A DNA stretch of 23,438 bases. It comes from a virus. Positions 1 through 22,337 of the stretch are shown piece after piece. The position numbers and the translations under genes are program-made. The stretch lies in IMG/VR virus record IMGVR_UViG_3300032284_003122, positions 1 to 23,438 of that record, one strand, 5' to 3'. Position 1 is the first letter of the stretch, and each line of letters starts with the position of its first letter. A model generated the notes under the pieces. The model was not told where the DNA came from and searched no databases. It worked only from the letters and a program-made list of their open reading frames with translations.

Positions 1-616
1 GCTTCCGTATAGCCTTTTCATATACCTTAATCATATATAGGTCTATTCCTTCTGGAAATAAATTCATAGCACACCATAATCTATGCCCACCATCAATTAC
101 AATCCAAGATTTATTATTATTCCAAGGTTTTTCAATACAAACCGGTTTAGATTTATCAGGACTTTTTAACCATTTTTTAGTGGTTTCTTCTAAAAATACT
201 TTTCTTTCTTCAGGTGTGTTTCCTTCTACTTTTCTTCCTTTAAAATATTCAACACCCGTTTGTATAGATTTTGCCCACTTACTCTCCCTTTCTGTTATTG
301 TTTTTTTAGATAGAAATGGATAAATTTCCTTAGTATTAGAAATACCTTCTTTAAATGTAAATTCAAACTCGTTAAGAATTTTTTCATTGTATATCCAAGG
401 AATTTGTATATTCTCTTGATGTTCAGAATTATTATCAATTCTGGTTAAATAGTCAACAACTTCTTTACTTAACCCCTTTTTAGTCAGATAATCTTTTTCA
501 ATAGATTTACATTCTTTCCATATCTTAGTATATTCAGGAGATGTATTAAAATTCTTCAACCCTAAATGGTGCTCAAATAATCTATTGTAGTCTTCAAATA
601 GTTTAATGTGTTTCAT
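1..616 (-). CDS. ParB/sulfiredoxin-like protein with N-terminal head-targeting-like motif (partial)
   Basis: The reading frame opens at the ATG complementary to 614-616 and stays open to the window edge, so the C terminus is missing (205 codons seen). The N terminus reads MKHIKLFEDYN, one of the recurring head-targeting-like elements in this window, with L-F-E as a possible prohead protease site. Near residues 170-185 the sequence WIVIDGGHRLWCAM resembles the D-G-x-H-R loop of ParB and sulfiredoxin-like nucleotide-binding domains; the preceding residues are strand-forming as in that fold. The rest is charged and helical with no recognised domain. It is divergent from the gene at 664, with 47 bases between the two starts. 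The motif is seen directly; membership of the ParB-like fold is an inference from one short motif, and the function is unknown. An internal head protein with a nuclease or nucleotide-binding role is possible. Confidence 0.6.
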   Translation of the reverse strand, partial: MKHIKLFEDYNRLFEHHLGLKNFNTSPEYTKIWKECKSIEKDYLTKKGLSKEVVDYLTRIDNNSEHQENIQIPWIYNEKILNEFEFTFKEGISNTKEIYPFLSKKTITERESKWAKSIQTGVEYFKGRKVEGNTPEERKVFLEETTKKWLKSPDKSKPVCIEKPWNNNKSWIVIDGGHRLWCAMNLFPEGIDLYMIKVYEKAIRK

Positions 617-634
617 AATTTTGGTTATTTTTAG

Positions 635-657
635 TATATATTAATTTTATATATATA
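635..657. promoter_or_regulatory. Divergent AT-rich promoter region with two TATATA boxes
   Basis: The 47-base gap between divergent starts at 616 (minus) and 664 (plus) holds AATATATA on the minus strand (635-642), 18 bases from the minus ATG, and TATATATA on the plus strand (650-657), only 6 bases from the plus ATG. The first is positioned like the boxes in front of other transcription units here. The second is unusually close to its start codon, so the plus gene may instead use the 635-642 box. Confidence 0.4.
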
Positions 658-663
658 GACAAT

Positions 664-1752
664 ATGAAACATCTAATTAAATTCTCTTTATTTGAAGAAG
701 TAAACCCTAAAGATATCGCAATGATTGAAAGCTTCAGCGATTACTTCACGGTGGCATTTGAGTTTGAAATAGAAACATTAGATAGAAGTAATATTAAGGT
801 TAAATTTAAAGATATTGACGAAGATGCGGTAGAAGATATTATAGATATTGTTTACAAAGACATGAGAATAAGAAAGAAATCCGAAAAAGATTTAGTTTAT
901 GATTTAATGTATAAATTATATGATCATGTTGAAGATAAATCTATTGATTTAAATACATTTGAAGAGATGTTTGATATTAATAAATACTAAACTGAAAGAG
1001 AAAAAAAAATAATAGATCATCTTAAAAACTCAATTAAATCATTTATTTACGAGGAGAATTATCCACATCTAAAAAGGATGGTTAAACAACATATGCCTAA
1101 CTTTACAAGAAAATGGTATAGAAAGATTGATTTTGTGGGTGATTCTACTTTAGATAGAGGTATTGAAATTAAACCAAAAACTTACATACCAAGTTTATCA
1201 GAATCAATTGAGATGATAAATGACTTTTATAATGATTTAGAAAAACAAGATTATTGGTACTTCTCAGAAAGAACTGGTATACACATAAACATTGGTTCAA
1301 ACCAACCAGTAGAGTGGAATCCAATTAAAGGTTTAATGTTGTTAAATGACTTCTCAGAAAAAGAAACAACACCCTACACATTCAAAGACATGACTTGGAG
1401 AATGAATAACAAGTTTTGTGGTTCTTTAATACCATATTTGAGAAAACTAACTGATAAAGAAAAGTTAAAGCTAAAATCTTTAGACCTACATAATTTAAAA
1501 GAAGCTGAAGTTGTATTAAATCAATTCATAAGTAAAAAAGTTACTGATATCGGATTTAAGAATCTTGGGTTCAACATAACAAAACTATCCAATAATTATG
1601 TTGAGTTTAGATATGCTGGTGGTGTACTATCAAGAGAAGTACTAATAGAGAAAGTTAAGTACTTTGCTTTTGTTGCTTATTGTATGACAAATGCAGAATA
1701 CAAAAGAAAAGAATATACTAAAAAACTATATAAATTTATAGATACACTATGA
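664..1752 (+). pseudogene. Amidoligase (ATP-grasp-like COOH-NH2 ligase) gene split by an in-frame TAA
   Basis: Two ORFs, 664-990 and 1078-1752, lie in the same frame. The 87 bases between them are also open and read as ordinary protein, so the whole is one 362-codon frame broken only by TAA at 988-990. The upstream piece carries the N-terminal F-E-F-E motif (residues 32-35) typical of amidoligases. The downstream piece carries the D-S-x-L-x-x-G-I-E-I motif (residues 160-169), T-G-I-H-I-N-I-G, and a late V-E-F-R-Y-A-G-G motif, all hallmarks of the family. Such enzymes form amide bonds between a carboxylate and an amine; the substrate is unknown. The N terminus MKHLIKFSLFEE is head-targeting-like. 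No promoter box or good start precedes 1078, so an independent downstream gene is unlikely. The stop could be a natural nonsense mutation, a readthrough site or a sequencing error. Confidence 0.75.
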
Positions 1753-2240
1753 AAAAGATGACTTACTTAAAAAAGTTCAACGAAGCTTCAGGAGAAGAAT
1801 GTGATTTTGAAACATTCAAAGAGATTATGATGGAATTATCTGATTATTTCCACTGCGAATTTCACGACTATACAAAAGAGAACGACTATTTTTACGATTG
1901 TGAATTAACGATACCTCAAATAAATGATGAGGAAGTTGATGAAGAAGGAACTTACTTAACAGCTAAATATTTACTTGAAGTAATACCACCAACAGATGAA
2001 CCAGGTAATATAGAGTTACTTTATACACCACTTGGCTATTCAGTTGACAATCAGATCGAAAATCTAGAAAAATTAAAGAACATTATTATGGCAAATAATA
2101 ATAAAATTAAAAAAATATTTAAACTACTTCAAGAAGAAATTGTTCCGAGGTTTCAAGCTTTTTCTAACTTTGAACAATGTTCGGTTGGATTTGACGGTGA
2201 TGTTTTAAGAATTTGTTTTGATATGCCTGACGAGGGTTAA
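1749..2240 (+). CDS. Small acidic protein with N-terminal head-targeting-like motif
   Basis: The start codon overlaps the stop of the amidoligase frame (ATGA), so the two are translationally coupled and probably belong to one unit. The 163-residue product begins MKKMTYLKKFNEASGEE, which has the aromatic-basic spacing of the recurring N-terminal element and an F-N-E/A junction like a prohead protease site. The rest is acidic, with many Asp and Glu and several aromatic residues, and ends in a short helix-rich part. No enzymatic motif was recognised. It may be a partner or substrate of the amidoligase or an internal head protein; this is inferred from position and the N-terminal element only. 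It converges with the gene on the opposite strand, overlapping it by four bases. Confidence 0.7.
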   Translation: MKKMTYLKKFNEASGEECDFETFKEIMMELSDYFHCEFHDYTKENDYFYDCELTIPQINDEEVDEEGTYLTAKYLLEVIPPTDEPGNIELLYTPLGYSVDNQIENLEKLKNIIMANNNKIKKIFKLLQEEIVPRFQAFSNFEQCSVGFDGDVLRICFDMPDEG

Positions 2241-2851
2241 ATCGGACAACTACTAGCAGTATAGATATACTTGTAATTTCTTTTAATTTTAACGCCTAAA
2301 CTTTCAGCGGTGGTTACAATGTCTTCAAGACATTCACCATCAGCACCACCAACTATTGTAACTTCTTTATCTTTTAATGATGTTAATAACTCATATAACT
2401 TCTTAGGGCAGTGATACCACTGATGGTTATTACCAATATAAACTATGTATGTATATTCTTTAGTAGGAAATATATCACCTTTCTTTAATAATTTCTTATC
2501 TTCTTTATCAGAAATATCATTATATACTTCTTTATCTAGAATTTTCTTATAAAAGTCAGCATCTACTTTATAATTGTATCTTTTTTCAATAAGTTCTTTT
2601 TGATTAGGGAAATGATAAAGATCTTTATGAATAGGAATAATCGGCTCATCATCATATAAATAATCTTTATCCACATTCTTACCATCTATGTGATTATCAA
2701 AAATTTGATAAACAATATCAAATTGTTTACAATACTTCTTTAATTCATTCAGATACATTTCTGAAAAAAACTTACGAAAGCTTTTCTGAACATCAACTAT
2801 AACCAATATAGATTGACTTTGAAAACTCTCAAATTTTTTAATATAAGCCAT
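2237..2851 (-). CDS. Isochorismatase-like cysteine hydrolase with N-terminal head-targeting-like motif
   Basis: After an N-terminal MAYIKKFESF element, the chain continues LVIVDVQKSF, the classic first strand of isochorismatase/nicotinamidase-type hydrolases with catalytic Asp20. Lys90 in E-K-R-Y-N-Y fits the catalytic lysine, and Cys174 in GGADGEC, followed by a helix and Gly-Val-Lys-Ile, fits the nucleophile and last strand of the fold. The Asp-Lys-Cys triad therefore appears complete in 204 residues, a usual family size. Known members hydrolyse nicotinamide, isochorismate or related amides; the substrate here cannot be told. In a phage, a role in NAD metabolism is possible but inferred. 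The HNH gene ends three bases upstream, and its last codons overlap a TATATATA box that sits close to this start. Confidence 0.7.
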   Translation of the reverse strand: MAYIKKFESFQSQSILVIVDVQKSFRKFFSEMYLNELKKYCKQFDIVYQIFDNHIDGKNVDKDYLYDDEPIIPIHKDLYHFPNQKELIEKRYNYKVDADFYKKILDKEVYNDISDKEDKKLLKKGDIFPTKEYTYIVYIGNNHQWYHCPKKLYELLTSLKDKEVTIVGGADGECLEDIVTTAESLGVKIKRNYKYIYTASSCPI

Positions 2852-2854
2852 TAA

Positions 2855-3544
2855 CTATATATAAAAATCAATTTTATCATTTTTAATATCTCTATTCACT
2901 TTACTACAAAGAGGTTGTAAGTTAGTATAGTGATTTAATCTAATTAATTCTTCGTCTGTTTTAGCAGACGATAGTGGTATTATGTGATCAATATCCCACC
3001 CATGATTTAATTCACCATTATATAAACCATAATTATCCCAAGTCATCCATTTTTCAAATTTAGATTCTAAATAAAATCTTAGATACTCATAAGAACACCC
3101 AATTATCTCATTTGTTTTGTGATTTTTAACCTTCATAAATCTCTTAACTAAAGACCTAGCAGAAACTTTAATTAGTTTATCAGGATCTTTTGTAGTAACA
3201 TTATGATAATAATTTTTTTTATATTCTCTTATTTTATCAATATTATCATTTCTCCACTTCTTATAAGTTTCACTTCTTTTATCTTTATTTACTAAAGCAT
3301 ATTCTTTGTCATATTCTTTTTTGAATTCTATATTTTCTATGTACCACTGCTTACTTTTATAATTACACTTTTCTTTATTTGATAAATAATAACCTTTTCT
3401 ATATTCTTTAATTTTATCTTTATTATCTATAGAGTATATTTTTCTACAATCTTTACAATTATGTCTATAGCCATCTTTACTTGATTTTAATTTACCAAAT
3501 GAATCAAGTGTTTTTACCTGTTTACATGAACAACAAACTTTCAT
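2855..3544 (-). CDS. HNH homing endonuclease with N-terminal zinc finger
   Basis: The 229-residue protein starts with a C-x-x-C...C-x-x-C zinc-binding unit (Cys4, Cys7, Cys30, Cys33). A long basic segment follows with repeated N-K-x-K-x-x-x-Y-x-K units, and the C-terminal HNH nuclease domain covers residues 183-225 (D-H at 186-187, then N208 and N217). This layout is common in free-standing phage HNH endonucleases, which cut a DNA site in genomes lacking the gene and so spread it. It stands alone between the isochorismatase-like gene and a bidirectional terminator and has its own upstream AATATATA box. It ends with TAG, while most neighbours end with TAA. The family is clear; homing activity and the target site are inferred. 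It is probably a recent insertion within this accessory block. Confidence 0.88.
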   Translation of the reverse strand: MKVCCSCKQVKTLDSFGKLKSSKDGYRHNCKDCRKIYSIDNKDKIKEYRKGYYLSNKEKCNYKSKQWYIENIEFKKEYDKEYALVNKDKRSETYKKWRNDNIDKIREYKKNYYHNVTTKDPDKLIKVSARSLVKRFMKVKNHKTNEIIGCSYEYLRFYLESKFEKWMTWDNYGLYNGELNHGWDIDHIIPLSSAKTDEELIRLNHYTNLQPLCSKVNRDIKNDKIDFYI

Positions 3545-3563
3545 AAATAACTTATTTTTATTA

Positions 3564-3571
3564 TATATATT
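3564..3571 (-). promoter_or_regulatory. AATATATA promoter-like box before the HNH gene
   Basis: On the minus strand the sequence AATATATA lies 19 bases upstream of the ATG at 3544, the same spacing as at several other unit-leading genes in this window. Confidence 0.4.
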
Positions 3572-3611
3572 AAAAATTGATAATCACATTGATGGTAATT
3601 TTATTAAATAA

Positions 3612-3639
3612 AAAACCCATCAAATATTTGATGGGTTTT
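3612..3639. terminator. Perfect 28-base palindromic terminator
   Basis: AAAACCCATCAAATATTTGATGGGTTTT is described here by its arms: AAAACCCAT at 3612-3620 and ATGGGTTTT at 3631-3639, with complementary sequence through the centre. It has A-rich and T-rich flanks on both sides, so it can act in either direction. It lies just after the stop of the minus-strand gene at 3662-4237. Confidence 0.85.
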
Positions 3640-3661
3640 AATTCTTTTAATATTTTATTAA

Positions 3662-4237
3662 TTAAAGAGGTAATTCTTCTTCACCTTCTTCTTTTTCTTC
3701 TTCACCTTGTGCTGGAGCTTCTTCCTCTTCAGCAGGAGCCTGAGCTTGTCCTTGTGCAGGTGATTGAGCTTGTCCTTGAGCAGGTTCTTCAAATTCACCT
3801 TGTGCAGGTGCTTGAGTTTGAGGAGCTTCTTCAGTTTGAGCTGGTTGAGCTGGTTGAGCTTGTGCCTGAGGAGCTTCTTGAGTTTGAGCTTGAGGTTGTG
3901 CTTCTACCTGAACTTGAGGTTGAGCCTGTGATTGTGTTTGAGTTTGTGATTGACCACCACCCATTAAAGCACCACCAGGGATTTTATCAACATCTAAGTT
4001 ATCCATATTAATAAACTTTACAATTTCTTCAGCAATATCAACATCACCAAAGAACGTGCGTAAGTTTTTACCAGTAGTATCTTTTACTTTTTTTACATAA
4101 GCATTGATTAAAGATTGAGGAATATCAATCATTGTCTTTACTTTGTAAATATCGTTAACTTGAAGAACAGATTCTCTAATAATTTCTTCTCTATTCTTTT
4201 TAACACGATAACTTTCATATGTTCTAATATGCTTCAT
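3662..4237 (-). CDS. Gln/Ala/Pro/Glu-rich protein with N-terminal head-targeting-like motif
   Basis: The 191-residue product has two parts. Residues 1 to about 90 start with MKHIRTYESY, the recurring N-terminal element with T-Y-E/S as a possible cleavage site, followed by a mixed helical domain. From about residue 95 onward the chain is low complexity, first Gln-rich (alternating S/T/A-Q), then A-Q-P and P-A-Q-G-Q repeats, ending in a run of Glu with a final L-P-L. The tail is acidic and has no predicted fold. In T4 the prohead core contains small acidic proteins; a scaffold or internal head role here is an inference from the acidic tail and the N-terminal element. The gene has its own upstream AATATATA box and a strong terminator. 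Confidence 0.75.
   Translation of the reverse strand: MKHIRTYESYRVKKNREEIIRESVLQVNDIYKVKTMIDIPQSLINAYVKKVKDTTGKNLRTFFGDVDIAEEIVKFINMDNLDVDKIPGGALMGGGQSQTQTQSQAQPQVQVEAQPQAQTQEAPQAQAQPAQPAQTEEAPQTQAPAQGEFEEPAQGQAQSPAQGQAQAPAEEEEAPAQGEEEKEEGEEELPL
3680..3955 (-). repeat. Low-complexity coding repeat (Gln-Ala-Pro units)
   Basis: The part of the gene coding the C-terminal tail is an imperfect tandem array built from short units translating to Q-A-Q, P-A-Q-G-Q and E-E-A-P. Such arrays can change length by slippage. The opposite strand is left open across it by chance, giving a leucine/glutamate-rich false ORF. Confidence 0.75.
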
Positions 4238-4262: not shown

Positions 4263-4270
4263 TATATATT
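4263..4270 (-). promoter_or_regulatory. AATATATA promoter-like box
   Basis: It lies 25 bases upstream of the ATG at 4237 on the minus strand and matches the motif found before most unit-leading genes here. Confidence 0.4.
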
Positions 4271-11717: not shown

Positions 11718-14600
11718 ATGAAGTATCTTAGTAATAGAGATGAATTCCTTAAAAGAAGTATAATCAAGATCGATGAACATATATCTATAAAAGATGATTC
11801 AATCAATGAAGAAATTGAATCCGGTCCATTTGCCAATGATATACCTTGGAATGACTCATTACTTGGTAGATTGATAAACTCTGCCATCAGAAAAGCAAAA
11901 ATAGGTGCAAATCTAGTTAGAATAAAGCAAGTTGGTAAAAGATTGCAAGAAGCTTTTGATGATTTATTAAGTAGATCATACGCATCTGGCTTATCAAAAG
12001 AAGATAAAGCTAGATATAATAAAGTTTCACTATATGCTTTTTTAGAAGAGTTAAAGAATTCAGTTGAGGAACTTGAAGGTAAAAGTGATGATGAGACACT
12101 TAAAGAAATAGAAGGGTTAAAAAATCTAACCGATACCGCTATCAAAGAAATTACAGACTTTGAAAATAAAACACCAGCGGATGAATTAACAATTGATAAG
12201 AGTGATTTAGATAAATTAATAAAAGAATTAAAAAAGTTTAGAGAATTCTTAAATGAGTTTAAAAAAGGAGAAGAAGAAAAGCCTGTAGAAACAGAAGGTG
12301 AAGAAAAAAGTGAAGAAAAGCCAGAGGTATCAAGTGAAACATCTGAATTATTTTACAAAACATCAGTTACTTTACTAAAATCTGTTATTTCTTTATGCGA
12401 TGTTGTAAAAGATGGTAAAATAACTTATCCAAAATCAACAACTCAGGCTAAACCAAATGAAAAAGAAACAACTAAAGTTGATACAAAAGAACCTGTAAAA
12501 GCAGAGGTAACAACTGAAAGATTTTTTTATGAAAATGAGTCTCTTCCAATATTTGAGTCAGAGTTAGCATCAAATGAAACTAAAGCTATTAATGCTTGGA
12601 AAAAAGTTGAAAGTGCTTACACTAAGTCAGGTATTTCTAATATGGTTACTAGAATTCAAGATCTTATTAAGAACTCTGAATCTGGTGAGAATGCAGAACT
12701 ATATAAAAAAACTATAAGTAAAATAGGATACCAAGTAGTTATGAATGAGCAAACTATTGGTAAGAACCTATTAAGCCATGATGATCTTGTTAAAGAAGAA
12801 TTAAATCCAGATTCTGATAATGACATACCTAAGGCTATTTCATTATTTGGTAATGTTATTTTAGCATTCAAAGGTGATATGGGCTTATCAGCTCAACTAA
12901 CAGAAGCTAATCAACCTATTAAAGATTTTATTAGTTCATATGATAAATTAAAAGAACTATTACCAAAGTTAAAATCGTCTCAAGAAACTAAAGATTCCAA
13001 TACTGAATCAGAGGTTAAAACAGAAGATGATATTGAATTAGGTAAGCATTATAAATACACCAATAAAAAAGGCGAGACTAAAGATGTTATTGCAGTAGAT
13101 AAGGATAAAGTTGTTTATCCAGGTGATGATAAAAAATATCTAACATCTGATGATAAAAAAGGAAAAGAATTAGCTAATAAAGACGTTTTATCAGTAGCAA
13201 CTGACAAATCAATTGGAACATTTGCTGTTAGACCCAATCAATTAAAAAAAGAATCTAAATCAATATTTAGATATTTTGACTTTATAAATGAAGCTGACGA
13301 GGATGTAGATTCTAAAGAGGAAAAAATAACAACCGATAAAACTGAAGAGGTTTCAGAACCAACTCAAATGATCATGTCTCAAAAGATAAAAGATTATTGG
13401 GATAAAAATGTAGATATCAAAAGCTTTGTAATGACAAAGAGTGAAATGGAAAAAGCTCGTATAGCATTTGACAAGGCTAGTAAAAGCGATTCTATTGTGA
13501 TACAAGGAATGGATCCTATTATTGAAATAGTTAAAGTTTTTAATAGAGCATATAAATTACATACAACTCAAGTTATACCAACAGGCAGAAAAGGAGGAAT
13601 GGTATCTAATAAAACATTTAGAGAGTACACAACATTTGGCGGTGGGTCACCAGACAGCGCAGGTTCTACTGGTGGGCCATATAGAAATAATGCGATTTTT
13701 GACCAATGGGAAGATGCGGTTCTTAATATTAAAAAAGATACAAAATATCAAAAAATATTTAGACAAGAGACTACACTAAAAACCGAAGAAGGTAACATAA
13801 TAAAAGATGCGGGTAAGAACCTTTTAAGATTCATGAATGATATGATTGATGGTGATACCTTATACAAAACTGATAAATCCGGGAAAGGCAAACAAGCCGA
13901 ATTTATTGAAAAATACTTTGGTACATCCGTAGATAACGAAAAGTTGGCTATCGGTGGAGAAAAAGAAATGAATGAAAATGGTAAAATTGCAGATTCTATA
14001 AAGGTTAGAAACTTAAATTTTACAGAAAAACCATTAAAGTTTGATAACTACGAACAATTAAAAGGTACTTTCTTTGCAACAAGTACAAATGACAATAAAG
14101 TATTATATTTCTACATACAAGACTTGCAAAATGGTGAGTTATACATCTCATATTGTAGAAGTATGTACTTTTTTGACAAATACATAACAGAATCGGGAAA
14201 TTCTATTAAGTTAGAAGGTGGTAATCTACCATTTGGTTTAAATAAAAATCAAAAAAATAAAGATGGTAAGGAATTTATAATATCAGCTTTTAGAATAAAA
14301 CCAGAATCTCTTATTGATAAAGATGGTAAGTTTAAGTTAAGTGGTAAATATTCAATTAAAGCCATAACTAAGTTTGATGAGGGTAAAAATAAAGCAGCAT
14401 CTTCAAAATTATCAGAAGAGGCTGAAATTGATATTAAGTCAATATTTACTTTACAGGAAAAATTAAAAGATAAAGAGGGTAAAGATATAGTTAGGAGATT
14501 TGTATTAACAAATGCCTCAAATTCAATAACAAAAAATGGCGGCTTTGTAAATATTGCAGCATCAAACGATGCTAACAAAACATCAATAGTTAAAAAATAA
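11718..14600 (+). CDS. Large charged head-protein candidate with internal protease-like sites (possible polyprotein)
   Basis: The 960-residue product is rich in Lys, Glu and Asp, with long helical and coiled-coil parts and Lys/Glu linkers near residues 175-210, 235-265 and 410-440. No domain was recognised. Three sites look like prohead protease cuts ([LI]-x-E): S-I-N-E-E-I-E-S near residues 28-35, L-P-I-F-E-S-E near 276-282 and Y-F-D-F-I-N-E-A-D near 519-526. The last is preceded by S-I-F-R, so that together it mirrors the N terminus of the next gene's product (L-K-T-Y-K-L-F-I-E-E-A-D). Cutting there would give pieces of about 30, 250, 245 and 435 residues. It is coupled to the next gene by TAATG. 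A role as internal or core head protein is inferred; a tail or baseplate protein is also possible. Confidence 0.65.
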   Translation: MKYLSNRDEFLKRSIIKIDEHISIKDDSINEEIESGPFANDIPWNDSLLGRLINSAIRKAKIGANLVRIKQVGKRLQEAFDDLLSRSYASGLSKEDKARYNKVSLYAFLEELKNSVEELEGKSDDETLKEIEGLKNLTDTAIKEITDFENKTPADELTIDKSDLDKLIKELKKFREFLNEFKKGEEEKPVETEGEEKSEEKPEVSSETSELFYKTSVTLLKSVISLCDVVKDGKITYPKSTTQAKPNEKETTKVDTKEPVKAEVTTERFFYENESLPIFESELASNETKAINAWKKVESAYTKSGISNMVTRIQDLIKNSESGENAELYKKTISKIGYQVVMNEQTIGKNLLSHDDLVKEELNPDSDNDIPKAISLFGNVILAFKGDMGLSAQLTEANQPIKDFISSYDKLKELLPKLKSSQETKDSNTESEVKTEDDIELGKHYKYTNKKGETKDVIAVDKDKVVYPGDDKKYLTSDDKKGKELANKDVLSVATDKSIGTFAVRPNQLKKESKSIFRYFDFINEADEDVDSKEEKITTDKTEEVSEPTQMIMSQKIKDYWDKNVDIKSFVMTKSEMEKARIAFDKASKSDSIVIQGMDPIIEIVKVFNRAYKLHTTQVIPTGRKGGMVSNKTFREYTTFGGGSPDSAGSTGGPYRNNAIFDQWEDAVLNIKKDTKYQKIFRQETTLKTEEGNIIKDAGKNLLRFMNDMIDGDTLYKTDKSGKGKQAEFIEKYFGTSVDNEKLAIGGEKEMNENGKIADSIKVRNLNFTEKPLKFDNYEQLKGTFFATSTNDNKVLYFYIQDLQNGELYISYCRSMYFFDKYITESGNSIKLEGGNLPFGLNKNQKNKDGKEFIISAFRIKPESLIDKDGKFKLSGKYSIKAITKFDEGKNKAASSKLSEEAEIDIKSIFTLQEKLKDKEGKDIVRRFVLTNASNSITKNGGFVNIAASNDANKTSIVKK

Positions 14601-15160
14601 TGAGAACTCTTAAAACATATAAACTCTTTATAGAAGAAGCAGACTTTGATATTAATCTAACAGACGAACCTGATGTTAAAATGGCTAAAGATGAGTTATC
14701 AATAACTCAAAAGCAATTGGCTGAATACAAAACAAAGAAACCTTTGTTAGATAATGCTTATCTTAAAATAAAATCAGATGCCGACTTACAAATAAAGGTT
14801 GATGAGATTATAGGCAAGGCTGATGAAAAAACACCTAAAAATCCTTTTTTAGTTGAATACCTACATGTTGCTAATCTTAAAAGAAAAGTTGATAATCTTC
14901 AAAATAGTATTGCTGATGATAAAGTTAAAAAAGATGATTTTAGTAGTCAACTACAAAGTATAACCGACGACAGCACAAAACAATCTGTAAATGGTAAAAT
15001 CACTGATATAACCAACAGAATATCGACAAATACGACAACTATAGCTTCTTTAGTTAAAGATATAGCAGAAGCACAAAAGTCATTAGATGATAAAATGAAA
15101 GATGTAGAAAAAAATATGATGGATAATATCAAGAAGATGTCAAGTCAGACATCAAAATAG
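14600..15160 (+). CDS. Coiled-coil protein with strong T4-like capsid-targeting N terminus
   Basis: The N terminus M-R-T-L-K-T-Y-K-L-F-I-E-E-A-D is the closest match in the window to the T4 capsid-targeting sequence (MKTYQEFIAEA), including the I-E-E/A junction expected for the prohead protease. The remaining 170 residues are almost entirely helical and charged, with coiled-coil heptads (residues 30-60, 90-120 and 140-180) and no enzyme motif. Its start overlaps the stop of the large gene by one base, so the two are made together. In T4 the internal proteins packed with the DNA are small, basic or helical and carry this signal. I infer an internal head or core role; scaffolding is an alternative. 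Confidence 0.7.
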   Translation: MRTLKTYKLFIEEADFDINLTDEPDVKMAKDELSITQKQLAEYKTKKPLLDNAYLKIKSDADLQIKVDEIIGKADEKTPKNPFLVEYLHVANLKRKVDNLQNSIADDKVKKDDFSSQLQSITDDSTKQSVNGKITDITNRISTNTTTIASLVKDIAEAQKSLDDKMKDVEKNMMDNIKKMSSQTSK

Positions 15161-15221: not shown

Positions 15222-18200
15222 ATGGCAATTCAAATTGGAAAATACAAAAGACCAGGAATCTTCATAGAAGAGTATGATAATTCAATTATAACATCTCAAG
15301 TTGTTGAGGGTATTACTAATATGGTTATTGGTGTTTCTAAAAAAGGACCAGTAAACACACCTATTAGACTTACAACTCTTAGCGACCTAGAGTCGATATT
15401 TGGTCAACTTGACAGAGGCTTGGAAAGAAAAGGTTCATTTTTCCACAGAACTATCCAAAAAATGTTAGAATCTGCTCCGGTATACGCTATCAATCTTTTA
15501 AGTACAGATGATACTCTTGATGTTATTGATTATAAATCATTATCAGCTTCTGCTGGATATATGAACGACATCGAAAGAAGTGGTGCATACAGAAGATTCT
15601 TTGACACTACTGGCTTCTGGAAAAGAGATACAGAATCTTTCATCAATTTAACTAAAGGTAATACTGGTTATACTGAGAGAGCTTTCAATATCACTAACCT
15701 TTCTGATAAATATATTACTACATTTATCATTAAAAGTGATAGAACTGGTTTCGACAGAACCCTTATCGAATGGTATGGTTCTCAAGAAAAACTTCCGCCA
15801 TATGTAAATGCTAATGACTGGGCATCTGACTACTTAGTAGATGTTTTAGTTGTAGGTGGTGATTGGACTGATTACCAAACTTTAGCAGTTGACAATAGAT
15901 GGAAATCTTACTTCAACACATCTGGTCTTATTAAAGAACAGATTGGAAACTTCGCTAATGATAGAAATGTTACTTTATTAGCTTATTATCAAGGATTGTC
16001 ATTAATTCCATATTTTAGAGATGCCAACGGTACTAATATTTTTATTGAAACAACAATTAACAGAGATACAGATAAAACTGGTTTATTCTGCGCTTTTAAC
16101 TCAGATTTAGTTGAAACAGATTACTACAACGGTTTATTAGACTTAGTAGGTCAAACAACTGCAGGTATTGATGAATCATCAATTGAGTTCTTGTCTTATA
16201 AAGAAACAATCGCAGAGTCTATTGAAATTACAAATACTCCATTAGACTTACCAGGTAACGTTACAGCTTTAACAAACGTAACATACAACTATAATGGACA
16301 ACCATACCACGCATTTGATAATGGTAATGGCCCTGAAAGCACTGGTGTAATCGCATATGGTGAAAACAGAACATTCTGGTTTGGTGAAGGTTATGTGTAT
16401 AACGTAACAAGAAATGGTGCTACATCATCAGCTTCTGCTTCTATCGTAGTTACCTACAATGTAGCAGATAATGCCTTTGCTATGATAGGTGATGTTCAAG
16501 TTCCGGTTTCTGCAACAACATCATTAACTATAAGTGCAACTGACTATTCAGTTTCTTCAGCTACATTATCATTTGTATCTACATTTGTATTGGATAGCAC
16601 AGGAGCTATAACAATGGTTTCTAACACAACTGGTTCAACATCGGATGTAAATACTACACACCCATCAGTTCCAGCAACTGATATCGTTCTAGGTTATGCT
16701 AACTTTAGAATGATTAACGGTCAAATTATACCTGACTCACTTACTATAACAGATGTAAACGTAGACTTAAATAGTTTTGTAGATCTTAGTTATGGTACAG
16801 GTGGTTCTGATGATTATTATATCACTAACTTAGGTTCTGGTTCTATCAAGGTAGAATTTATGAACACTAACGCAACACCTACAAGTGCTAACTACCAACA
16901 ATATAGAAGAATTAAATTATTCAACAAGTTGGTAAGTCTTATTAGTTCAGTTAACAAAGACAAAATGGTATTAAATCTTGGTCCAGCTAATAACTTTGAT
17001 AAAGTTAGCTTATCAGGAATGACAATAACAAATATTGTTACTACAACAACTGCTAACAAATCATTTGTATTAAATACAGGATTATCAAGTGGTCAATTAT
17101 CTGATATACTTGCTGGTTTCTTTGTAGTTTACACAGTAGATAATGAACTTATAATGGGTGAAGATTCTATGACTACTAAAATGGAAGCTGCTACAACTTC
17201 AGATGGTGTCGTAGGTTTATACTCTAAATACTACACAAACTACTATGATGGTATTATCAACACTGGTGATTTCTTCTATACTAATAGAGTTCCTCAGTCA
17301 ATGATACAAAACGGCGAAACTTACACTATTATATTCATTGATGGTGAAACAGCTACAGGTGCAACATCTGCATATGCTGGTCATAATTATGTTATATTTG
17401 ATGGTGCTGTTGACCCAGCCTTCAATGTATATGAACAATTTATTGTTCCAGATTCTACAAAAAATACTGGTTCATTTATAATAGCATCAAATACTGCACC
17501 TGCAACTTTAGCAACTCACTTAGGTTATAGTGGTTATTTTGCTTATGAAGTTAGTGAGGCTGTAGTATATGAAGAAGTTATGAATGTTTCTGAAATTTAT
17601 GACTACATTAATAAGAAATTTATTAAAATGTATCTAAATAGTGGAGATCTTTATGTTGGATTCTTTGATGATGCTGCATTCAGTGGTAATACAGCTCTTG
17701 ATATAATAGCTAATAATACTATCTATATTCAATCAGAAAAATCAAACTTCACTCAAACAGTTGAAATTGAAGTTCCTTCTGGATATGTTCAAGTACCTAA
17801 TAAAATACTTGTTAAGTCAAGTAGATATACTGAAATCGTTCCTGGTAACTTCTTATTAGCAGAAGGTTGGAATACAACACCTGAAGCTGGTGTACCTAGA
17901 AAACTTACAAGAATTCTAACTAAGAAAGCTTACAGTGGTGACTCAACATTATCTGAAATCACTTGTGATGATAAGATTTATAAAGTTAACTATGGTGGAC
18001 GTTTAGAAACAACTAGATATACAGCAATTGAAGACTATGCTCTTACTTACAAAGGTATTGCTATGAAAGGATTTAGAATCAGAACAGCTTCTTTACCTGA
18101 CGGTACTGAATCAAGACAAAATACAATATTAAATATTGTTGCTAAAGGAACTCCTTTATTCAAAGCAATAACTAACAAAGAAGCTATTGACTTTAGATAT

Positions 18201-19112
18201 TTAATCGACTCATTCGGTCTTGGTTTAACTGAAAGATCTAAACAACAATTAGTAGATATTTGTGGTGAAAGATTAGACGCTCTTGGAATTATTAATATGC
18301 CTTCTATGAAGGAGTTCAAGAACTCAACATCTCCATCATTTATGGACAATGACCCAACATCTCCTACATATGGTACTCTTAGACTTGACTATGTAGCAGA
18401 AGGCGGTGACCCAACAAGCTCTCCTGCATTCCTTTACTCTTTTGGTGATGGATTAGGTTCAACTTCAGTAGGTTACTTTATGCCTTATGTTACAGTTGAT
18501 GACAATGGTAGACCAATAGATGTACCACCAGCAGCTTGGGTAGCTTCAACTTATATGAGAAAACACATCTCTAATGTAAGTGGTGTTACTCCTTGGACAA
18601 TCGCAGCAGGTGTTACTAATGGTAGAATCACTAACATTACAAAAACTGAAATGGATTTCACTCCAACTGATATCGAATACATAAATGGTGCTCAAATGAA
18701 CCCAATTGTGTTCAAGAGAAACAGAGGAAATGTAATTGAAACTGAAAATACAGCTCAAACACTTTACAAATCAGCTCTTTCATACTTACACGTTAGAGAG
18801 GTGTTGATTGAACTTGAGAGAGAATTATCAAGAATGTTATTAGACTTCCAATGGAAATTTAATACACCTGATGTTAGATCAGAAATTAAACTTAGAGCAG
18901 ACGTTATCTGTGAAACTTATGTAAGTAAGAATGGTTTATATAACTACTTTAACAAAATGGATGAAGAAAATAACACAAGTGAAATCATCGACAACCAAAT
19001 TGGTGTTCTTGATACTTATGTTGAACCAATCAAGGGTATGGGTATTATTGTAAATAATATTACAATCTTGAGAACAGGTGCTATCTCAGCAGGTGGATTC
19101 ATAAACGGATAA
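15222..19112 (+). CDS. gp18: Tail sheath protein (gp18-like), about twice the usual length
   Basis: The N terminus (residues about 5-100: G-K-Y-K-R-P-G-I-F-I-E-E-Y-D, then V-V-E-G-I-T-N-M-V-I-G) and the C-terminal domain (about 960-1296, ending with I-K-G-M-G-I-I-V-N-N-I-T-I-L-R-T-G) are typical of contractile-tail sheath proteins. The sheath contracts to drive the tail tube into the host. At 1296 residues it is about double T4 gp18 (659). The extra length is in the middle: a Ser/Thr-rich, beta-rich stretch at about 334-560 and a further beta-rich part to about 950, likely domains protruding from the tail surface. Codons ending in C (TTC, AAC, GAC) are more frequent than in neighbouring genes, in keeping with high expression. 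A strong terminator follows directly. Confidence 0.93.
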   Translation: MAIQIGKYKRPGIFIEEYDNSIITSQVVEGITNMVIGVSKKGPVNTPIRLTTLSDLESIFGQLDRGLERKGSFFHRTIQKMLESAPVYAINLLSTDDTLDVIDYKSLSASAGYMNDIERSGAYRRFFDTTGFWKRDTESFINLTKGNTGYTERAFNITNLSDKYITTFIIKSDRTGFDRTLIEWYGSQEKLPPYVNANDWASDYLVDVLVVGGDWTDYQTLAVDNRWKSYFNTSGLIKEQIGNFANDRNVTLLAYYQGLSLIPYFRDANGTNIFIETTINRDTDKTGLFCAFNSDLVETDYYNGLLDLVGQTTAGIDESSIEFLSYKETIAESIEITNTPLDLPGNVTALTNVTYNYNGQPYHAFDNGNGPESTGVIAYGENRTFWFGEGYVYNVTRNGATSSASASIVVTYNVADNAFAMIGDVQVPVSATTSLTISATDYSVSSATLSFVSTFVLDSTGAITMVSNTTGSTSDVNTTHPSVPATDIVLGYANFRMINGQIIPDSLTITDVNVDLNSFVDLSYGTGGSDDYYITNLGSGSIKVEFMNTNATPTSANYQQYRRIKLFNKLVSLISSVNKDKMVLNLGPANNFDKVSLSGMTITNIVTTTTANKSFVLNTGLSSGQLSDILAGFFVVYTVDNELIMGEDSMTTKMEAATTSDGVVGLYSKYYTNYYDGIINTGDFFYTNRVPQSMIQNGETYTIIFIDGETATGATSAYAGHNYVIFDGAVDPAFNVYEQFIVPDSTKNTGSFIIASNTAPATLATHLGYSGYFAYEVSEAVVYEEVMNVSEIYDYINKKFIKMYLNSGDLYVGFFDDAAFSGNTALDIIANNTIYIQSEKSNFTQTVEIEVPSGYVQVPNKILVKSSRYTEIVPGNFLLAEGWNTTPEAGVPRKLTRILTKKAYSGDSTLSEITCDDKIYKVNYGGRLETTRYTAIEDYALTYKGIAMKGFRIRTASLPDGTESRQNTILNIVAKGTPLFKAITNKEAIDFRYLIDSFGLGLTERSKQQLVDICGERLDALGIINMPSMKEFKNSTSPSFMDNDPTSPTYGTLRLDYVAEGGDPTSSPAFLYSFGDGLGSTSVGYFMPYVTVDDNGRPIDVPPAAWVASTYMRKHISNVSGVTPWTIAAGVTNGRITNITKTEMDFTPTDIEYINGAQMNPIVFKRNRGNVIETENTAQTLYKSALSYLHVREVLIELERELSRMLLDFQWKFNTPDVRSEIKLRADVICETYVSKNGLYNYFNKMDEENNTSEIIDNQIGVLDTYVEPIKGMGIIVNNITILRTGAISAGGFING

Positions 19113-20162: not shown

Positions 20163-20385
20163 GCTTCTATTACAAAAGCACTTTCATACACAAGAAATAT
20201 CTATGGATGATTGGCCTTTTTGGATGTTTGAAGAAAACATTAAAATGGTTAATGAGATTGTTGAAGAGGAAGAAACTTCTAGAAAGAAACAAGAACAAGA
20301 ACAACAAAAAGGAATGCCAAACTTTGATGCTAATTCAATGATGAGAAATGCCTCAAATATGACAGGTAATTTACCAAAGTTCTAA
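20131..20385 (+). CDS. Small protein overlapping the gp26-like gene (possible frameshift extension)
   Basis: The frame is +1 relative to the gp26-like gene. Starting at ATG 20131 (or 20134) it codes 84 residues and overlaps the upstream gene by about 30 bases; a further ATG is at 20203. Translation reads as real protein on both sides of 20203 (K-H-F-H-T-Q-E-I-S-M-D-D-W-P-F-W-M-F-E), followed by a Glu/Gln/Lys-rich helix and an Asn/Met-rich tail. Short D-x-x-x-x-P-F-x-x-F-E segments of this kind occur in tail-assembly proteins partnered with baseplate or tape-measure chaperones. It may be translated by coupling or by +1 frameshifting from the upstream gene as in lambda gpG/gpGT-type systems. 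No classic slippery site was found at the stop. Confidence 0.55.
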   Translation: MMPLKHILKNKLLLQKHFHTQEISMDDWPFWMFEENIKMVNEIVEEEETSRKKQEQEQQKGMPNFDANSMMRNASNMTGNLPKF

Positions 20386-20392
20386 AATAATT

Positions 20393-20418
20393 AAACCCAC
20401 CAATTTGGTGGGTTTTTT
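20393..20418 (+). terminator. Terminator of the gp26-like unit
   Basis: Arms AAACCCACC and GGTGGGTTT with a short AATTT loop are followed by a T-run on the plus strand. Confidence 0.85.
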
Positions 20419-20426
20419 AGTGCATA

Positions 20427-20455
20427 AAAAAACCCATCTAAAAGATGGGTTTTTA
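20427..20455 (-). terminator. Terminator of the tail tube gene
   Basis: Arms AAAAACCCATCT and AGATGGGTTTTT close a short A-rich loop; the A-run on the plus strand gives the T-run for minus-strand transcripts. It stands back to back with the plus-strand terminator just before it. Confidence 0.85.
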
Positions 20456-20470
20456 ATTTTAATATTATTA

Positions 20471-21091
20471 TTAGTATCCAGAAATAATTGGAGGATTAAT
20501 AGTAAAGTTGTTATCAATATATTCATCAATGAAGTAATCATAGATAAAGTCTGCTTGAACTGATTCAATAATATTATTAGATGACCAATCAAGTGAATAA
20601 CCAGCTAACTTACTGATTTGGCAGTTTTGGAATGTTACACGTCTTAAAACAACACCTTTTTTATCATGTTGGTTAACAATAATTGTACCAATGATATCAG
20701 ATTTATAGTGAAGTGTACCATTTTGTGAGTTAAATACTAAATCGTACCAAGCTTTCATTGCGTTCCAAGTCTCCATAGAACCTTGTTGATTTACGTTAAC
20801 ATTAAACTTAATGTTAAATGAACCAGAAGTTTTTGTAGGAGTTGTTAAAAACGCTCTTGTTGAATATTTAAATCTTTGTTCTTTAACAGCAACATCAAAT
20901 TCTGTTAAGTTAAAATCTATATTCAACGCATTTTGAAGAAGTAAGATAGGGTTTCTACCTTGAGCCTGTAAAATTACAGGTAATACAAATGTCGTCTCAA
21001 ACAAATTTGTATATACTACTTCATCAGGTAACGTACCTGGTCCACCCGGTGAACCGGTGTTTAAAAGTTGAGTGAAGTGTGGTAATGGCAT
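20471..21091 (-). CDS. gp19: Tail tube protein (gp19-like)
   Basis: The 206-residue chain has the size and beta-rich pattern of T4 gp19-type tail tube proteins. It has an early hydrophobic strand (T-T-F-V-L-P-V-I-L), then Y-D-L-V-F-N-S-Q-N-G-T-L-H-Y, I-I-G-T-I-I-V-N-Q-H-D-K-K-G and R-R-V-T-F-Q-N-C-Q-I-S-K-L, and ends with D-W-S-S-N-N-I-I-E-S-V-Q-A-D-F-I-Y-D-Y. The last two match the conserved C-terminal half of phage tube proteins, where the strands form the tube wall. Hexameric rings stack inside the sheath. Unlike T4, where tube and sheath genes are adjacent on one strand, here the gene lies on the opposite strand beyond the gp26-like unit. An AATATATA box lies 26 bases upstream. Confidence 0.83.
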   Translation of the reverse strand: MPLPHFTQLLNTGSPGGPGTLPDEVVYTNLFETTFVLPVILQAQGRNPILLLQNALNIDFNLTEFDVAVKEQRFKYSTRAFLTTPTKTSGSFNIKFNVNVNQQGSMETWNAMKAWYDLVFNSQNGTLHYKSDIIGTIIVNQHDKKGVVLRRVTFQNCQISKLAGYSLDWSSNNIIESVQADFIYDYFIDEYIDNNFTINPPIISGY

Positions 21092-21204: not shown

Positions 21205-21540
21205 ATGAACTGTAACTATAGATATTGCAATAAAGAGATTATTTGGGGTAGACCCGATAGAAAGTTTTGTAATAAAAATTGCAAGTCTAAAGAAAAAGCC
21301 ATATCAAAAGAATTAAAAGCTCTTAATAGAAGAAGTAAAAAGAGTAAAGAATTTGTTGAAAAGTCAAATATTAAACATAACTATAAGTATAACTACGACT
21401 TAGTTCTTTATGAGAACTGTAGAACTAAAGTCAAAATAATATGTCCTATACACGGAGAATTTGAACAAACACCAAATGCTCACTTATATGCAGGTAGTGG
21501 ATGTGAGAAATGTGCTAGAGAAGCCAGAAGAAAAGATTAA
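21205..21540 (+). CDS. Zinc-finger protein with DUF723-like C terminus (homing-element associated)
   Basis: The 111-residue protein starts with a zinc-binding unit C-x4-C...C-x3-C (Cys3, Cys8, Cys22, Cys26). The C-terminal half follows the pattern H-x-Y-x-Y, L-Y-E-N-x-x-T-K-V-K-I-x-C-P-x-H-G-E-F-x-Q-x-P-x-x-H-L-x-x-G-x-G-C-x-x-C, which matches the DUF723 (CapR-like) module often found in phage and homing-endonuclease proteins. It likely binds DNA; no nuclease motif is present. It lacks the AATATATA box and is preceded by a hairpin, unlike the phage's own genes. It converges with the LAGLIDADG gene, their stops overlapping by about four bases, suggesting the two arrived together. Confidence 0.65.
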   Translation: MNCNYRYCNKEIIWGRPDRKFCNKNCKSKEKAISKELKALNRRSKKSKEFVEKSNIKHNYKYNYDLVLYENCRTKVKIICPIHGEFEQTPNAHLYAGSGCEKCAREARRKD

Positions 21541-22337
21541 ACTTTTCTAGTTCTTTTAAAGAAACCTCTATTATAAGATATATTGTTTTTCTTACAACAA
21601 TTGTATATCTTTCTCCAATTACACTCAAAATGGTTGGCAATATCTATTATATCCAAACCTTCGTTTATTTTTGATATTAACAAATCAGTATCTATATTGG
21701 ATTTATTAGATGAATTTTTAGGCTTATTATCAACAATACTTTTACACTTATTATACTTTCTTTTTAAACCTATCTCATATCCAATAGGATATAAATATTC
21801 ATATAGAATTTCTATTTCTTGATGTTTTTTTATTCTTATATATGAACTACTATTTCCATTTTTATTAATTGTTCTTCTAATCTCATATTGTTTAATATTC
21901 AATGATATAAATAAGTCTTCTATATGTGACCAATCTTGATCATAACAAGATGTGATATAAAATTGTCTTGATTTATTCTTCTCATTAAAATAAAAACATC
22001 CATCACCATCAATAAGACCAAGATAAAAATACCTAACCAAATCAACGGGTATATCAGATAGTAAATCAAGCGGTGCCTTTACACTTTTATCAATAAAATA
22101 TTTTGATTGATAACTATCATAGAACTTAGAGTCACAAAAATAAATGGACATCTGAGGTCTTCTATTTTTTCTAACACGGTTCATAGTTTTAATATTTAGA
22201 AAACTTATAAGCTTTATATCTTCAACTATATCTAGAGCATCATCCTCAACTATTTCCAAAACTGTTCTATATCTCTCAATATTACCATCGGACCAAAGGA
22301 ATCCAAGGAAATAAACGAAATTCTTATCATATATCAT
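21537..22337 (-). CDS. LAGLIDADG homing endonuclease
   Basis: The 266-residue protein carries two LAGLIDADG helices. The first is F-L-G-F-L-W-S-D-G (residues about 10-18) and the second L-G-L-I-D-G-D-G (about 106-113), each with the catalytic acidic residue near its end. Two motifs in one chain mean it acts as a monomer on an asymmetric site. Residues after about 215 look like a helix-turn-helix (L-D-I-I-D-I-A-N-H-F-E-C-N-W-R-K-I-Y) that may add DNA contact. LAGLIDADG enzymes are less common than HNH or GIY-YIG types in T4-like phages. It sits between the tail tube and gp47-like genes as a probable insertion. An AATATATA box lies 36 bases upstream. Confidence 0.88.
   Translation of the reverse strand: MIYDKNFVYFLGFLWSDGNIERYRTVLEIVEDDALDIVEDIKLISFLNIKTMNRVRKNRRPQMSIYFCDSKFYDSYQSKYFIDKSVKAPLDLLSDIPVDLVRYFYLGLIDGDGCFYFNEKNKSRQFYITSCYDQDWSHIEDLFISLNIKQYEIRRTINKNGNSSSYIRIKKHQEIEILYEYLYPIGYEIGLKRKYNKCKSIVDNKPKNSSNKSNIDTDLLISKINEGLDIIDIANHFECNWRKIYNCCKKNNISYNRGFFKRTRKV

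Follow-up and report, generated by a model that had tools for sequence, protein, structure and literature searches.

The window analysed here is the whole of a 23,438-base IMG/VR fragment, IMGVR_UViG_3300032284_003122, in which we identified a set of genes whose products begin with the same short N-terminal element (the tag) followed by unrelated bodies. We assign it, as a fragment, to a Mahaphage of ~640 kb. The terminase of the window shares 78% identity with those of LR756502 (642 kb) and LR745206 (635 kb), 41% with that of LR756504 (636 kb) and 43% with that of LR756501 (735 kb, the 735-kb phage below), and is identical to that of G001, a 476-kb sister contig that shows 99% identity across window positions 627–23434. 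Four genomes of Al-Shayeb et al (2020) are the largest complete ones and belong to the Mahaphage clade, with Bacteroidetes hosts predicted (PMC7162821). The full sequences of LR756502, LR745206, LR756504, LR756501 and G001, together with those of phage PTm1 and of Sphingomonas (Sphingobacterium) phage PAU, were compared. Open reading frames (ORFs) were called with a simple script using ATG starts, longest first, so that ORF counts are approximate.

All five N-termini on which the initial annotation had based its proposal of one pattern on unrelated bodies are present in the window, and two further genes beyond the annotated range of 1–4237, at 14600..15160 and, with a weaker tag-like start, at 11718..14600, bring the total to seven (Table 1). 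The 664..1752 gene has an in-frame TAA at 988–990 in the window and corresponds to an intact 362-aa ORF in G001 (44757–45845). In the 204-aa protein encoded at 2237..2851, F7 and E8 are invariant across 20 relatives, and its predicted model places residues 2–8 in a separate low-confidence helix, with the first strand starting at residue 15. The orthologues of the 3662..4237 and 14600..15160 genes are tagged in both LR756502 and LR745206. Orthologues of the 960-aa protein begin with MRYLKQREEF...LIKE↓E and MKYLSKRSEY...VINE↓S, each preceding GP[FM]AND; the LR756502 orthologue is a 797-aa ORF at 196788, of which the N-terminus alone was compared. The strongest tag-core match seen, RYFDFINE↓A (19.5 bits), is internal to the 960-aa protein, at residue 518. 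The LR745206 orthologue has no internal tag-core match of this kind, and two tagged proteins may for this reason have been fused in the 960-aa protein. The tail sheath, tube and terminase of the window carry no tag by profile.

Table 1. Tag-bearing genes and ATATATA-type elements of the window (arrow, candidate cut; scores are from the tag profile).
Feature	Position	Strand	N-terminus	Remarks
Tagged gene	2..616	minus	MKHIKLFEDY / MKHIKLFEDYNRLFEHH	DGGHR motif in body; 3' end off contig
ATATATA-type upstream element of 2..616 gene	635..641	minus
ATATATA element, putatively late-type, just 5' of 664 gene	649..655	plus
Tagged gene	664..1752	plus	MKHLIKFSLFEE / MKHLIKFSLFEEVNPKD	Candidate cut SLFE↓E; amidoligase-like by motif only
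Tagged gene	1749..2240	plus	MKKMTYLKKFNEAS	Candidate cut KFNE↓A; acidic 163-aa body; score 9.1
Tagged gene	2237..2851	minus	MAYIKKFESF / MAYIKKFESFQSQ	204-aa body
ATATATA element directly 5' of 2237..2851 gene	2856..2862	minus
Tagged gene	3662..4237	minus	MKHIRTYESY / MKHIRTYESYRVKKN	Conserved 190-aa protein; Q/A/P/E-rich tail; score 19.2
ATATATA element 5' of 3662..4237 gene	4263..4269	minus
960-aa protein	11718..14600	plus	MKYLSNRDEFLKR	Weaker tag-like start; candidate cut SINE↓E just before conserved GPFANDI
Tagged gene	14600..15160	plus	MRTLKTYKLFIEEAD / MRTLKTYKLFIEEADF	186 aa; between 960-aa protein and tail sheath; score 10.7

The tag was described by a profile of residues 2–8 (seven residues), trained on LR756502 only and applied with a cut-off of at least 8 bits; LR745206, G001 and LR756504 were left out of the training. 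The resulting consensus is M-K-[HYN]-[LI]-[KR]-x-[FY]-[NEK]. Genome-wide, the frequency of the motif, which the initial annotation had proposed to compare with expectation, lies far above that in shuffled N-termini: 125/971 ORFs match in LR756502 (0.2 expected), 98/936 in LR745206 (1.2), 54/634 in G001 (0.4), 44/924 in the divergent LR756504 (1.0) and 4/25 in the window (0.0). Depending on the criteria, the tagged proteins total 125–155 in LR756502 and 61–75 in LR756504, G001 and the 735-kb phage. The window-type profile matched 1 of 305 ORFs in PTm1 and 1 of 294 in PAU, which served as control phages. Of the 1129 ORFs in 59 terminase-related contig loci longer than 9 kb, 145 were tagged, spread over 55 loci. 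A strict DNA pattern of the motif occurred in 18–19 copies each in LR756502, LR745206 and LR756504 and in 11 copies in G001, whereas the reversed pattern gave 0–1 matches per genome, compared with a forward maximum of 19.

The 125 tagged proteins of LR756502 fall into 116 BLAST clusters; at this level their bodies are almost all unrelated. Gain and loss of tagged genes is quick, with a reciprocal best hit in LR745206 for 31/125 tagged genes of LR756502 compared with 383/846 untagged ones. Where orthologues are tagged on both sides, conservation of residues 1–8 is 0.65–0.71 versus 0.44–0.53 for the body, and untagged orthologues show no excess conservation of residues 1–8 over the body. The same body can also carry a different, lineage-specific tag. 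The 204-aa protein begins with MAYIKKFESF in the window and with MKVIKFSDYLKES in its orthologue from the 735-kb phage, and the amidoligase-like protein begins with MKHLIKFSLFE in the window and with MITNYTNYINE↓F in that phage. The glutamyl-tRNA synthetase of G001 (262861–264486) has a tag-like N-terminal extension, MDMKYIKTRNRFLAES, ending in FLAE↓S, that is lacking in LR756502. The window tag profile fails to detect the tags of the 735-kb phage or PAU; these variants are visible from the phages' own N-termini.

The prohead protease gp21 of phage T4 cuts after the glutamate of [ILF]xE. We found the related motif [ILVFYM]xE[SANGDE] within residues 6–28 of 67–76% of tagged and 19–23% of untagged proteins. 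The suggestion that the window tags end in an xxE site held for MKKMTYLKKFNE↓AS and MKHLIKFSLFE↓EV but not for MAYIKKFESF and MKHIRTYESY, which show no clear site. The head genes follow the T4 order of portal, S77-like protease and Gp23 major capsid protein (MCP), and the MCP propeptides end in the predicted sites INEN, IHEN and MNEN. A gp21-like protease gene, which the initial annotation had advised looking for, was identified between portal and MCP: the S77 protease occurs in nearly all related records, and its alignment with gp21 covers the conserved HP and SSR segments. Its Pfam matches in the large phages are below the Pfam cut-off, and a Phmmer comparison of the MCP and protease with solved structures found nothing. 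In LR756502 (225272–227371) and its orthologues, a single fused protein holds the protease and a scaffold-like region built of 14-residue repeats, YSEY[IL]AE↓N, that contains 11–13 copies of [YFW][ILV][AG]E where ~0.1 would be expected.

A second profile of nine residues, for which N-termini of the 735-kb phage (e.g., MDKYNNFINEA and MIKKYIQFINEA) were the sole input, connects the tag both to this region and to T4. In internal proteome scans it ranked the protease-scaffold protein top, with 10, 9 and 7 hits in LR756502, G001 and LR756501, respectively, the next best protein having 2–3; in sequence, the scaffold repeats resemble the tag core. It also scored the T4 internal proteins IPII and IPIII (MKTYQEFIAE↓A) at 14.8 bits. 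In T4, the capsid-targeting sequence (CTS) directs internal proteins to the core and is then removed by gp21; mutations assigned residues 4 and 7 to targeting and residues 8 and 10 to processing (PMC9026906). Residues 4 (L/I) and 7 (F/Y) rank with the best-conserved positions of the tag and are present in nearly all copies, so that the T4-type targeting positions are matched. The likeness to the T4 CTS noticed in the window's letters is borne out by these two results.

An ATATATA-type element lies 5' of the MCP, portal, protease, sheath, tube and terminase genes. When only free-standing genes are counted (45 nt or more upstream), it lies ahead of 33/36 tagged and 91/255 untagged genes in LR756502, 29/31 and 96/265 in LR745206, 16/16 and 89/213 in G001, and 22/24 and 90/369 in LR756504 (p 2e-6 to 3e-11), as well as 22/25 and 103/272 in the 735-kb phage (p 1.5e-6). 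Over the five genomes this amounts to 88–100% of tagged versus 24–42% of untagged genes. The element would be a late promoter. Its distance from the ATG falls into two classes, at about −15 and about −30/−35, the first of which would give almost leaderless messages.

Recognisable tagged bodies include lysozyme, SET, GNAT, HNH and glutamyl-tRNA synthetase domains as well as a poly(A)-polymerase/CCA enzyme head domain and a P-loop kinase, the carriers of these last two having been selected with a looser tag motif. Scans of the tagged bodies against Pfam, PHROGs, NCBIfam and PADLOC mostly found nothing, and a function common to them can therefore not be named. The initial annotation goes beyond the evidence in proposing that the cargo is packed and delivered and also, since most bodies match no family, in describing it as a set of enzymes; its labels ParB-like, amidoligase and isochorismatase-like, drawn only from short motifs, found no backing in Pfam or PHROGs. 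The isochorismatase and amidoligase labels likewise gained no support from solved-structure searches or AlphaFold2/Foldseek comparison (mean pLDDT ~63, no significant match). The body of the 2..616 gene has no family support from Pfam or PHROGs. Membrane segments were predicted in 10/305 tagged and 292/2457 untagged proteins, and the largest tagged protein has 772 aa, the largest untagged one 4258 aa. In LR756502, a tagged SET-domain protein (208299–208742; Pfam E 2e-11) adjoins the tagged 204-aa protein.

We consider it likely that the N-terminal element is a CTS of the T4 internal-protein type, expanded to ~60–155 proteins per genome in ~640–735 kb phages with predicted Bacteroidetes hosts. 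This reading is favoured by the genome-wide excess of the motif, the enriched xxE sites, the upstream element, the tag-like scaffold repeats, the match to T4 IPII and IPIII, the scarcity of membrane segments among tagged proteins, the differing lineage-specific tags on single bodies and the tagged genes in the PAU head cluster. Tagged proteins would be made late, when the head genes are expressed. A short, amphipathic segment that carries hydrophobic or aromatic residues at positions 4 and 7 (often 10), the tag would dock onto the prohead core by resembling the scaffold repeat unit YSEY[IL]AEN; the scaffold-fused protease would then cut the scaffold, the capsid protein and most tags after the glutamate of [ILVFY]-x-E. 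The cargo, freed within the head by this cutting, would be injected along with the DNA. Because the tag resembles the T4 head-loading label, these phages may be injecting a large toolkit of proteins when they deliver their DNA. We give roughly even chances to this fullest form, in which the largest phages tag up to 16% of their genes, load the products into the head by scaffold-repeat mimicry, free them with a scaffold-built protease and inject them as a premade toolkit.

Several observations weigh against a capsid-targeting function. Between roughly one in four and one in three tagged proteins lack a clear xxE site, including two of the window's five. Both profiles give a low score to T4 IPI, itself a genuine CTS protein, and neither recognises it, which limits the T4 likeness to IPII and IPIII. 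No such tag is found in PTm1, the PAU tag differs in sequence from that of the window, and PAU gp70, the third "internal capsid protein" of that phage, has no tag. A PQ-loop/SemiSWEET-like membrane protein and glutamyl-tRNA synthetase are odd cargo for injection, and we found no virion proteomics for these phages.

The missing cut sites, and the few tagged proteins with hydrophobic segments, would fit a tag that sends proteins, uncut, to another phage-made structure such as a replication compartment, the membrane or the tail. The likeness to prohead scaffold repeats and to the T4 CTS, the upstream element shared with head genes, the location of tagged genes in the PAU prohead cluster and the untagged sheath, tube and terminase of the window all argue for the head instead, and we regard another destination as unlikely. 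Slightly less probable still is one large, fast-diverging multigene family of which the N-terminus is the best-conserved stretch. Tagged genes do cluster (54 adjacent pairs versus 16 expected), and many bodies contain a weak D-[IL]-L-x-[DE]-L-x-D-[DE]-G-[FY] stretch; the small D-L-x-L-D-D-G bodies may share a deeper homology. A single family is at odds with the number of BLAST clusters, with clearly unrelated domains from different Pfam families, with the different lineage-specific tag on the same bodies in the 735-kb phage and with pairs that differ by tag gain or loss, such as glutamyl-tRNA synthetase.

We see very little room for a tag that carries no protein signal and acts at translation start, as a codon ramp or downstream box on short-leader messages. 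It would suit the many tagged genes in which ATATATA lies only ~11–15 nt before the ATG, giving almost leaderless messages. However, the tag codons are chosen about as freely as in ordinary usage (entropy 17.5 vs 18.3 and 16.5 vs 17.5 bits), on which ground we rejected a DNA- or translation-level element, and 123 different 24-base gene starts occur among 125 tagged genes. About half of the tagged genes, moreover, lie directly 3' of another gene and lack a leader of their own, and the scaffold repeats and xxE sites would be left unexplained.

The cultured relative PAU makes the reading of the tag as a CTS testable now. Twenty of its proteins begin with an MKT[LI]..LYE-type (or LFE) pattern (0.04 expected from shuffles), and 10/20 of their genes lie at 106.0–113.7 kb, around portal and protease and ahead of the MCP gene. 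Its GenBank annotation names gp142 and gp154 internal capsid proteins and gp152 scaffolding, on a basis unstated there; all three are tagged. N-terminal sequencing showed that the mature PAU MCP has 520 residues (56.2 kDa) of 585 (PMC5646251). The candidate site LME64↓N65 predicts 521 residues and 56.1 kDa and thus fits the mature protein within about two residues.

Other features of the window lie beside or between these genes. G001 carries a different gene where the window has 2..616, and the 99% alignment begins at window position 627; window 1–626 may reflect a cargo swap between near-identical strains or a misjoined contig end. An Endonuclease VII/HNH-like gene (2855–3544; PHROG E 7e-15) is flanked by tagged genes, and the ORF at 21537–22337 may be a further homing-type endonuclease. 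A repeated hairpin (CCCATCAAATATTTGATGGG and a T run) at gene ends, at 3612–3639 and 20383–20473, probably marks terminators. The tail sheath is long (15222–19112, 1296 aa).

Those T-even internal proteins whose function is known act by blocking restriction enzymes. Should a label of this type be present on 60–155 proteins in each of the largest phages, the proteins delivered into Bacteroidetes hosts, most of them without a known function, could be listed directly from sequence, and the great size of these genomes and heads would have one explanation. To our knowledge, how a CTS works is unsettled even in T4; the scaffold-repeat resemblance suggests a concrete mechanism. In open-licence papers, we found no description of this tag expansion.

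Three known systems invite comparison. The phiKZ and SPN3US inner-body and ejection proteins are similar in that many proteins enter the head and a prohead protease trims N-terminal propeptides. The head gene set of those phages differs from that of the large phages analysed here, and we found no report of a single short N-terminal tag shared among their proteins. In SPN3US, most head proteins (42) are uncleaved (PMC10052503). The PAU core proteins gp142–gp154 are closer: terminase and MCP are related, and an N-terminal tag is shared, often followed by KLNEA. Unlike in the large phages, carriers in PAU are far less numerous and one half of them lie in the head cluster, and the PAU protease (246 aa) is not fused to the scaffold. 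T4 itself has three internal proteins, whereas T-even phages have at least 10 types, many found through the CTS signal (PMC12373910). Like the tagged proteins, IPI, IPII and IPIII combine an N-terminal address having hydrophobic or aromatic residues 4 and 7 with unrelated, fast-changing cargo. Their downstream [ILF]xE↓A/S at a fixed or variable distance (IPIII MKTYQEFIAE↓A; IPI MKTFKEF...TITE↓A) has a candidate counterpart in most tagged proteins, and the portal, MCP and S77 protease of the large phages are all of T4 type. The large phages differ from T4 in having ~60–155 carriers per genome, a lineage-specific tag consensus, cargo that includes recognisable enzymes and a fusion of the protease to a scaffold whose repeats are similar to the tag.

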